A stretch of DNA of 53,839 bases from Candidatus Bathyarchaeota archaeon (lineage in GTDB: Archaea; Thermoproteota; Bathyarchaeia; Bathyarchaeales; Bathycorpusculaceae), in contig JAMDCQ010000022.1 in assembly GCA_023488905.1 (NCBI GenBank), positions 32,356-86,194 on the forward strand, written 5' to 3'. The notes under the pieces are model-generated. The model was not told the origin of the DNA. It did no database searches and saw nothing but the letters and a program-made list of their open reading frames with translations. The number at the start of each line of letters is the position of its first letter. The stretch's first letter is position 1. This document shows positions 4,416-35,315 of this stretch, one piece after another. A program made the translations under genes and the position numbers.

Positions 4416-4886
4416 ATGACAAAAACAGCTAAAACCGGAGGCATCGACGAATTAATCAGCGACTTCAGCCGCTTCTACACACTCACCATCCTCTACGAAG
4501 GCCCCACCCACGGCTACAGCATCATCAGCCAATTCAAAAAACGCGTCAAAAAAGAAATCAGCCCCAGCCTCGTCTACCCGTTTCTGCAGCAACTCCAAGA
4601 CAAAGGCCTAGTTAAATACACCATAGAACCCGTCGGAGAAAAAGAACGCAAAATCTTCGAACTAACCGAAGAAGGACGAGAACTCTGCACCTGCCTCTTC
4701 AAACGCTTCGCTGGCTTGGTATCTATTGCAATTGAGCCGAGCCTCTCGGTCTGTGCGCACTGCGGCTGCAAAGTCTACGAAGGCGCCTACAAAGAAGTCA
4801 TCGACGGCAAAGAAATCGCGTTCTGCTGCAGCCACTGCGCTGCCTCGTATAAAGAATGCAAAACTACAGCTAAACAAGCAAAATAA
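4416..4886 (+). CDS. PadR-family regulator fused to a TRASH-like metal-binding domain
   Basis: 156 residues. Residues about 18-95 are a PadR winged helix: YTLTILYEGPTHGYSII, then SLVYPFLQQLQDKGLVKY and FELTEEGREL. Residues about 110-146 are not the usual PadR helical tail but a compact Cys module: Cys113, Cys116, Cys118, then Cys137, Cys138, Cys141 (CAHCGC ... FCCSHC), like the TRASH metal-sensing domain. A DNA-binding head joined to a metal or thiol sensor is the simplest reading. The TATA box lies ~30 bases before the ATG, so the mRNA is nearly leaderless. It is divergent from the FAD oxidoreductase and 71 bases before the Rieske gene. Confidence 0.85.
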   Translation: MTKTAKTGGIDELISDFSRFYTLTILYEGPTHGYSIISQFKKRVKKEISPSLVYPFLQQLQDKGLVKYTIEPVGEKERKIFELTEEGRELCTCLFKRFAGLVSIAIEPSLSVCAHCGCKVYEGAYKEVIDGKEIAFCCSHCAASYKECKTTAKQAK

Positions 4887-4957
4887 CGGCTCAGCAGTTT
4901 TTAGACGTGCCCTATCCTTTTATTCCAAAGCTTCTACATAATTGAGGCGAGGTCTCT

Positions 4958-5290
4958 TTGGAATCAGGGTTTATTCGAGTTGCAGACATATCTGAAATAG
5001 AAGCGGGAAAAACAAAGAAGGTCACAGCGGGAGACATGGAGGTTCTTATCGTTAACTTTGATGGGGTTTTCCATGCTGTTGACAGTTTATGCACCCACTA
5101 CGGCGGCGACCTCTCCGAGGGTAAATTGGAAGGCAACATACTTACGTGCCCAATTCATGGAGCAAAATTCGTCGTAACCACTGGCAAGGTTGTTTCGCCG
5201 CCGACAGAGCCGCTTGACCGACCAGAAATCGAAAACCTGCCGACTTATCCTTTAAAGATTGAAAACCAAGAAATATTTATTAAAATTTAG
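4958..5290 (+). CDS. Rieske [2Fe-2S] ferredoxin-like protein
   Basis: 110 residues, a stand-alone Rieske domain. The cluster ligands are Cys45-x-His47 (CTHYGGDL) and Cys64-x2-His67 (CPIHGAKF). The order and spacing match small soluble Rieske ferredoxins of the NirD/dioxygenase-ferredoxin type. No membrane anchor is present. The chosen TTG start (4958) follows GAGGCGAGG-like sequence by about 10 bases. It follows the PadR-TRASH regulator in the same direction, so it may be its target. It would shuttle electrons to an oxidoreductase, possibly the divergent FAD enzyme; that link is inference. Confidence 0.9.
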   Translation: MESGFIRVADISEIEAGKTKKVTAGDMEVLIVNFDGVFHAVDSLCTHYGGDLSEGKLEGNILTCPIHGAKFVVTTGKVVSPPTEPLDRPEIENLPTYPLKIENQEIFIKI

Positions 5291-5362
5291 CAAAGAAAAT
5301 TTAAAGGTCTATTAGGAAAAATAAAAAACACTTATTAGAAATAAAAACCCTACATTACACAA

Positions 5363-5447
5363 GCAAGAACACAGGGCTTCTTGCCATGTTAGCTCTCTAA
5401 ACATCACTTAGTACTTTAGTGATATTTTTCGGGCCCTGATGGGGAGG
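5363..5447 (+). promoter_or_regulatory. Structured 5' leader of kamA, riboswitch-like candidate
   Basis: Three consecutive hairpins are readable. P1: GCAAGAA (5363-5369) pairs fully with TTCTTGC (5378-5384), enclosing loop CACAGGGC. P2: ATGTTAG (5386-5392) with CTAAACAT (5397-5404), one bulged A. P3: ATCACT (5403-5408) with AGTGAT (5418-5423). The P1 loop segment CAGGGC (5372-5377) is exactly complementary to GCCCTG (5433-5438), which lies two bases before the Shine-Dalgarno GGGGAGG (5441-5447). A loop-to-SD-flank pseudoknot is the architecture of translation-controlling riboswitches. It does not match an aptamer I can name. Ligand unknown; lysine or a derivative would fit the downstream gene. 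Confidence 0.5.
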
Positions 5448-5455
5448 AAATAAAT

Positions 5456-6628
5456 ATGAAAGAAAAACTGCGCCCAGCAGACTGTATCTCGACTCTAGAC
5501 CAGCTAAAGAAGCATCTTAAGCTCTCACCTGTAACAGAGACGCAGCTCGAGCGAGTACTGCAAGCGCACCCCATGCTAATTACTCCACATTATGCATCTT
5601 TGATTGACTGGACCGACCCAGACGATCCCATAAAGAAAATGGCTGTCCCTTCACGCCAAGAGCTTAACCTTGAAGGCAGCTATGATACAAGCGGGGAAGC
5701 TGAAAACACAAAGTTCCCCGGTATTCAACATAAATACGCAGAAACTGCGCTGCTTCTAGCTACCAATGCATGTGCGATGTATTGCAGGCATTGTTTTAGA
5801 AAACGACTTGTAGGGCTCCCGACCAAAGAGACACTCAAACGCTTAGAAGACGCAGCAGAATATATAAAAAAACATACCGAGATAAACAATGTTCTTGTTA
5901 GCGGCGGCGACCCCCTTACTCTGAGCAACAGAACAATCGAGAAAATGCTGGCTCTTCTAACGAAAATACCTCATATAAAAGCCATAAGAATCGGTACAAG
6001 AGTACCCGTGACATACCCGCAGAGGTTTGATGACGACGAACTTTTAGGGATCTTTAAGAAATACTCAACCAGCCAAAAGCGATTATACGTTGTAACCCAG
6101 TTCAATCACCCAAAAGAAATCTGTCCCCAATCTATCAAAGCGGTAAGCGAGCTAATCAATGCTGGCGTGCTGATTAATAATCAAGCTGTTCTGCTCAGAG
6201 GCGTCAACGATAAACCAGAAACACTTGCCACCTTAATGAACAACCTTGTAGGTATCGGAGTCACGCCATATTATGTTTTTCAATGTCGCCCACTCACCAG
6301 AGTCAAGAGCCATTTCCAAGTCCCCATATATGATGGGCTAATGGCTATTGAGAAAGCAAAAGCGCATTGCAGCGGTCTAAGTAAACGATTCAAGTACATT
6401 ATGTCCCATGTCACAGGCAAAATCGAGATTCTAGGCATAATGGATGAGGAAATATACTTCAAATATCATCAAGCAAAAGATAGAAAAAAAATAGGCGCGA
6501 TGTTTAAGTATCCGGTAAGTAGAACGGCGGGTTGGCTAGATGATTTCAATCCATACGAAGATCAGACTCATGAAGAACTCAAGATTAAGCAAGCAATAAA
6601 ATGGGAAATCCAAGAAGAAAGCAACTAA
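5456..6628 (+). CDS. kamA: KamA-family radical SAM aminomutase (lysine 2,3-aminomutase type)
   Basis: 390 residues. The radical SAM motif is Cys106-x3-Cys110-x2-Cys113 (CAMYCRHCF), followed by the KamA-typical RKRLVG, and VLVSGGDPL (SAM-binding GGD) and IRIGTRVPVTYPQR. The family uses a 4Fe-4S cluster, SAM and PLP to shift an alpha-amino group, usually L-lysine to beta-lysine. In archaea beta-lysine is a precursor of the osmolyte N-epsilon-acetyl-beta-lysine through AblB, but no acetyltransferase lies next to it, so another substrate (for example glutamate) is possible. Start: ATG with GGGGAGG 8 bases upstream. The structured leader suggests post-transcriptional control, unusual in archaea. 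Confidence 0.85.
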   Translation: MKEKLRPADCISTLDQLKKHLKLSPVTETQLERVLQAHPMLITPHYASLIDWTDPDDPIKKMAVPSRQELNLEGSYDTSGEAENTKFPGIQHKYAETALLLATNACAMYCRHCFRKRLVGLPTKETLKRLEDAAEYIKKHTEINNVLVSGGDPLTLSNRTIEKMLALLTKIPHIKAIRIGTRVPVTYPQRFDDDELLGIFKKYSTSQKRLYVVTQFNHPKEICPQSIKAVSELINAGVLINNQAVLLRGVNDKPETLATLMNNLVGIGVTPYYVFQCRPLTRVKSHFQVPIYDGLMAIEKAKAHCSGLSKRFKYIMSHVTGKIEILGIMDEEIYFKYHQAKDRKKIGAMFKYPVSRTAGWLDDFNPYEDQTHEELKIKQAIKWEIQEESN

Positions 6629-35172: not shown

Positions 35173-35315
35173 TCATTTAACGATTTGGCCGCAACTTGTC
35201 GGCTGCTTATTCTGTAGGTTTGAGGCGTAACCTTAAATTACGGCTACTCAATATTGAGAGTTGCTCCTACGCTTTTAAACGTCGGAGAAAACACGTTAAC
35301 ACTGGAGGAAACTAA

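Follow-up and report, generated by a model that had tools for sequence, protein, structure and literature searches.

The window analysed here, by which is meant the whole stretch of 53,839 nt from Candidatus Bathyarchaeota archaeon (assembly GCA_023488905.1, contig JAMDCQ010000022.1, positions 32,356-86,194 of the forward strand), carries on its plus strand the gene kamA (5456..6628), which encodes a KamA-family radical SAM protein of 390 amino acids from an ATG at 5456. The ATG is preceded by a Shine-Dalgarno (SD) sequence, GGGGAGG, at 5441..5447 (+), the counterpart of which is GTGGAGG in L003, the locus of a close relative described below. Directly 5' of kamA, and on the same strand, lie genes for a PadR-like regulator and a Rieske ferredoxin (4416-5290), the PadR-family gene (4416-4886) being two genes 5' of kamA; in L003 the PadR-like and Rieske genes are likewise upstream of kamA. 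Between the Rieske gene and kamA there is a weak TATA/BRE-like promoter candidate, CTTATTAGAAATAA, at 5331..5344 (+), with the same letters in L003. The spacing from TATA box to transcript start is ca 26 bases, and the candidate would put the start of the transcript near 5362. No terminator-like site is predicted within 5280-5480.

The initial annotation of this DNA had assigned the gene to the KamA family, and the assignment holds, the protein scoring 256 bits with TIGR00238 over a cut-off of 199.2. More specific identities were tried and rejected: lysine 2,3-aminomutase (AblA, TIGR03820) scores 268.7 bits, far under its cut-off of 525.4, glutamate aminomutase 272.9 bits (cut-off 650) and arginine aminomutase 249.1 bits (cut-off 600). 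Moreover, of two residues with a role in lysine binding, which by count along the alignment are D293 and D330 of 2a5h, the former aligns with the R of a QCRP signature in the window KamA and the position of the latter is not D, the protein reading YIMSHV where a paralogue from the same genome (L002, contig C18) has YVIDAP. That paralogue scores as AblA, at 710.5 bits. Judged by score and aligned residues, therefore, the product of the window kamA is a KamA-family protein and not a lysine 2,3-aminomutase; since it lacks both D residues, and since a different gene of the genome scores as AblA, a lysine or beta-lysine signal becomes less likely. Three bacterial relatives (L044, L058, L061) also carry QCRP, so that a KamA subfamily with this signature spans archaea and bacteria. 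In-frame TAA codons were counted within the kamA matches of L006, L014, L015 and L127-L129. As to neighbours, an MscS-type channel gene lies 3' of kamA in both of the two relatives tested with Pfam (349-1440 in L004, 2652-3713 in L013), which suggests osmoregulation; a divergent citrate synthase gene lies upstream in the one tested (L004), and by eye similar neighbour frames occur in some other loci, not all.

In the leader itself the initial annotation had drawn three adjacent hairpins and a pseudoknot closing close to the ribosome site, and its hairpins, loop complement and SD can each be read from the sequence where it placed them. Hairpin 1 (5363..5384, +) pairs GCAAGAA (5363-5369) with TTCTTGC (5378-5384). 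Hairpin 2, or P2 (5386..5404, +), consists of ATGTTAG (5386-5392), the loop CTCT and CTAAACAT (5397-5404), with one bulged A, and hairpin 3 (5403..5423, +) pairs ATCACT (5403-5408) with AGTGAT (5418-5423); hairpins 2 and 3 do overlap by two bases, 5403-5404. CAGGGC (5372-5377), in loop 1, has its exact complement in GCCCTG (5433-5438), from which two bases separate the SD. When chance is judged by a combination of at least two perfect hairpins, each of 6 bp or more and not overlapping, with a 6-base complement at least 20 bases apart, the full combination turns up once in 2000 dinucleotide shuffles of the 85 bases; of 1344 stretches of that length in the window, 2 have it, and the site itself may be one of them. 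The 6-base complement alone appears in 425 of 2000 shuffles. The folding energy of 5340-5460 has a z of -0.92, with 31 of 200 shuffles equally or more stable, and hairpin 2 on its own is weak (-0.3 kcal/mol). The individual features are genuine and seldom occur together, while the stability of the whole is ordinary.

A search for the protein in 90 genomes of the family returned one close KamA besides the window's own, namely that of L003, in genome G028 of the same genus, at 95% identity. With the leader DNA as query, G028 is the sole other carrier in the class (256 genomes, own included). In the order (162 genomes) G028 matches at 5.6e-50, followed by three short matches of 19-24 bases in G034 (3.2e-4), G035 (0.0044) and G026 (0.0068), the last of which is rejected as chance because it falls within a 453-aa open frame. 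No second copy of the leader was found within the genome of origin, where the best other match has an E of 0.83. Over 5327-5455, 121 of 128 ungapped columns are identical between the window and L003, the figure for kamA fourfold sites being 97 of 146; 5327-5362 is wholly identical, so that conservation begins 5' of any likely transcript. With gaps counted, the 93.8% identity of 5327-5455 ranks sixth among the non-overlapping noncoding 129-base stretches of the syntenic region, where 2808 sliding positions have a median of 84.5%. Some of these stretches are in fact overlooked genes: the highest-ranking one, at 35219, overlaps a 77-aa open frame which is presumably ribosomal protein S17e. By this alignment, then, conservation of the leader is high and not exceptional.

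What is conserved within the leader differs from one element to the next. Hairpin 1, alone worth -6.5 kcal/mol in the window, does not form in L003, where it reads CCAACAA/TTCTTGC, its 5' arm altered at two of seven bases and its 3' arm unaltered, with two C-C mismatches and hence two of seven pairs lost. Hairpin 3 loses two of six pairs, and its energy goes from -3.9 kcal/mol in the window to 0 in L003. Hairpin 2 is kept in L003 (TTTAGT CTCT ACTAAA, -1.9 kcal/mol), although it lacks one G and has gained a T and an A on opposite sides of its loop, and CAGGGC/GCCCTG has the same letters. By the refuting condition that the initial annotation had set, conservation in homologous leaders, the only such leader found thus retains hairpin 2 and the loop/GCCCTG complementarity and breaks hairpins 1 and 3, so that the three-hairpin pseudoknot is not conserved.

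The complementarity itself survives in a different form, since CAGGGC/GCCCTG is better drawn as a nested closing stem, P1, than as a pseudoknot. Its 5' arm, CAGGGCUU (5372..5379, +), is the loop-1 segment extended by two U, its 3' arm is GGGCCCUG (5431..5438, +), and at 8 bp it is the longest helix possible in both the window and L003. P1 has the same letters in the two leaders, and there is consequently no covariation between them. It would sit close to where the transcript probably begins and enclose a 51-base interior that holds hairpin 2. The minimum-energy fold predicted for the window RNA does not contain P1: enforcing P1 gives -18.2 kcal/mol, free folding -25.2, and the mean predicted pair probability of P1 there is 0.0, the favoured predicted fold pairing 5378-5387 with 5439-5448, across the SD. 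For L003 the P1 pair probability is 0.85, 0.76 or 0.04 depending on the 5' end assumed, the predicted fold favouring P1 for two of the three. Shortly 5' of the 3' arm is TTTAGTGAT (5415..5423, +), one edit from the TTTAGTCGAT of some relatives; the site in L003 is TTTCGTGAT. In the last 22 interior bases the 10-mer TTTAGTCGAT with one edit occurs in 2 of 2000 shuffles and the 11-mer TTTTAGTCGAT with two edits in 48 of 2000, and over the whole interior in 17 and 130 of 2000 respectively, these being counts for a motif that was picked after inspection of the sequences.

The more distant family relatives, L004-L015, have KamA identities of 62-71% and leaders of other sequence. By eye, nine of them (L004-L012) have a T-rich TATA-like box some 25-35 bases 5' of a stem, much as the candidate box at 5331..5344 precedes P1, and eight of these nine share the stem core CC(A/G)G...(C/U)UGG, L009 having CUAG/CUCG. 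RNAalifold applied to the nine recovers the stem, with seven pairs, of which three have two-sided changes. In an alignment of the same nine (A1), two-sided changes occur in three of eight pairs, and pairing is 84.7% in register versus at most 53.1% when slid; column shuffles match its covariation score in 116 of 500 cases and its percent paired in 77 of 500. Also by eye, TTTTAGTC is common to five of the nine (L004, L005, L009, L010, L011), and several have AAGCATAGG-like letters 3' of P1. L013-L015 have, at a similar position, a stem with GGAAAGC or GAAAAGC as one arm and GCUUUUC as the other; MAFFT did not bring P1 of these three into alignment with the remaining leaders, for which reason there is no covariation count across all lineages. 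Overall, the arms vary by lineage (GAGCCGGUA/UACUGGCUC, UGGAAAACCAGU/GCUGGUUUUCCG, UGUGAAAAGC/GCUUUUCAUA), the loops between them run from 26 to 56 bases, and neither a covariance model nor the MAFFT alignment found a conserved core common to all lineages. P1 ends 17 bases short of the window's start codon, whereas in the relatives this gap is 24-39 bases, and direct control of the SD need not, therefore, be shared.

The position of the stem was examined by taking, within 130 bases 5' of each start codon, the best contiguous helix with a loop of 25-65 bases. The 5' arm of this helix begins 84 bases upstream of the start codon in the window, 87 in L003, and 69-91 in ten of the twelve other leaders (L004 84, L005 89, L006 91, L007 84, L008 78, L010 88, L011 79, L013 87, L014 69, L015 71), L009 (108) and L012 (107) being outliers. 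With position unconstrained, seven of 14 leaders reach p<=0.05, including L012 through its differently placed helix; when ten leaders are taken as separate, the Fisher p is 1.5e-4, with five of ten at p<=0.05 versus five of 60 random windows. With the arm held to 66-94 bases, p<=0.05 is reached in eight of 14 kamA leaders (window 0.010, L003 0.011, L005 0.004, L006 0.001, L010 0.005, L011 0.040, L013 0.032, L015 0.002), six of these eight being among the twelve relatives L004-L015, and is not reached by L004, L007, L008, L009, L012 and L014, L009 being the worst at 0.80. Control leaders give five of 168 at p<=0.05, four of those at 0.01, the controls being other genes' leaders, taken from the window and from 400 kb of G028, among which the window kamA may be included. 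Fisher's method over nine relatives with the arm at 66-94, leaving out L008, L010 and L011 as near-copies, gives 1.8e-6, a value that overstates the case because kamA leaders share ancestry; the individual p-values are likewise optimistic, since the 66-94 range was fixed after the unconstrained result, with the window included. The test covered the window, L003 and L004-L015; in the sister-family orthologues L120 and L122-L126 the gene, by eye, begins within an upstream reading frame or immediately after it.

A covariance model of the nine relatives (R1) scores at best 3.4 bits on the window leader (E 0.74 in 201 bases), outside the P1 register, and has no match on the L003 leader; nor is the window leader recognised by a profile HMM of the relatives' leaders. 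With stricter filters, R1 finds no locus at E<0.01 among 162 genomes beyond its own nine, on which account the relatives' element looks gene-specific, and its weak matches (L139-L141, E 0.012-0.029) have long open frames that look, by eye, unlike KamA. A helix-plus-motif descriptor is unspecific, matching 240 times over the two strands of 400 kb, 12 of these at -16 kcal/mol, and it missed the leaders of L003, L006, L007, L009 and L012-L015. No additional genome with KamA at E<=1e-100 came from a search of 398 genomes of the phylum. Rfam families have no match at gathering score in the window and four sub-gathering matches in 5200-5560, none to a riboswitch; on 16 related loci they return two tRNAs and nothing else.

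P1, then, can pair, is invariant in L003 and agrees in position with the stems of other kamA leaders beyond both shuffles and control leaders. The reading tentatively preferred is that 5372-5438 is part of the 5' leader of the kamA mRNA with P1, a long-range stem, as its core. Like several of its sister genes, the window kamA probably has a long-range stem close to where its mRNA begins, and a gene-specific kamA leader stem as a plausible broader class is moderately supported: several orthologous leaders would have such a stem, similarly spaced from the start codon and made of other sequences. P1 would form in the RNA and, in this lineage, could gate access to the SD, which follows after two bases, in competition with the predicted fold 5378-5387/5439-5448; such a scheme of two competing states is proposed solely because the predicted folds of the window and L003 differ. 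The signal may be osmotic, given the MscS gene beside the relatives' kamA. In other words, the initial proposal of a new cis-regulatory RNA lives on as a leader element, with stems in several orthologues, and loses its three-hairpin pseudoknot.

The main rival is control at the level of DNA, a promoter with an operator in which the inverted repeats are half-sites for a protein, for example the PadR-like one. Such a region is possible, on the less likely side: conservation starts upstream of any likely transcript, a PadR-family gene is close by, hairpin 2 doubles as a DNA dyad, and L004-L012 mostly retain a CC(A/G)G...CTGG core, as half-sites would. However, arms whose sequences are unrelated between lineages, placed similarly far from the start codon and joined by loops of variable length, suit a stem better than the half-sites of one factor, and hairpin 2 is kept despite the bases lost and gained around its loop. 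That P1 is a generic 5'-end stem, stabilising the mRNA or spacing the start region with no sensing, would also account for a position that is kept while sequence varies, near the probable 5' end, and for the want of a core common to all lineages; it is nevertheless unlikely, since TTTTAGTC in five of nine leaders and the AAGCATAGG-like letters exceed the needs of a plain stem, and such stems are rare in control leaders. The original picture, in which three hairpins and a loop-1 pseudoknot form a metabolite riboswitch that responds to lysine, beta-lysine, SAM or salt, draws on features that are all present, in a combination rare among shuffles. It is very improbable and, because L003 breaks hairpins 1 and 3, unsupported; moreover, the window has no Rfam match at gathering score, and by NCBIfam cut-off and aligned residues the enzyme is not a lysine 2,3-aminomutase.

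Archaeal mRNA leaders that are structured and regulated have been little explored, and among the matches listed, by title and abstract opening, none was a published kamA leader in these archaea. If the preferred reading of a P1 leader is true, a stem kept in position before one gene family in several genera would make a concrete and cheaply testable candidate; the case also illustrates that a riboswitch model from a single sequence can get a pairing right and the fold wrong. More speculative, and rather doubtful, is that the leader is a hitherto undescribed cis-regulatory RNA, specific to a non-lysine KamA in Bathyarchaeia-type archaea, which acts as a salt- or osmolyte-responsive switch for a beta-amino-acid osmolyte, an archaeal counterpart of the bacterial Na+ riboswitches 5' of ablA and eam. 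According to PMC1224877, methanogen osmolytes include beta-glutamate and N-epsilon-acetyl-beta-lysine, and abl expression in Methanosarcina mazei is salt dependent; a passage of the same paper counts against a simple beta-glutamate reading.

Among known systems, the lysine (L box) riboswitch was proposed by way of the gene name, and the window has no match to it, nor is this KamA a lysine enzyme by score. The Na+-I riboswitch (DUF1646 motif) is reported in PMC9337991 to precede bacterial ablA, eam and dapB; the likeness is that of a structured leader 5' of a gene for an amino-acid 2,3-aminomutase that is linked to osmolyte synthesis. It differs in that the window gives no match at gathering score and the 16 related loci yield only tRNAs, and the tandem example described there uses intrinsic terminators, of which none is predicted around the kamA leader. 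The leaders of archaeal l7ae mRNAs, as reported in PMC6298567, contain a k-turn and fold upon protein binding. Here the resemblance lies in an archaeal 5' leader stem-loop acting on ribosome access, and the difference in that there a protein binds the k-turn.
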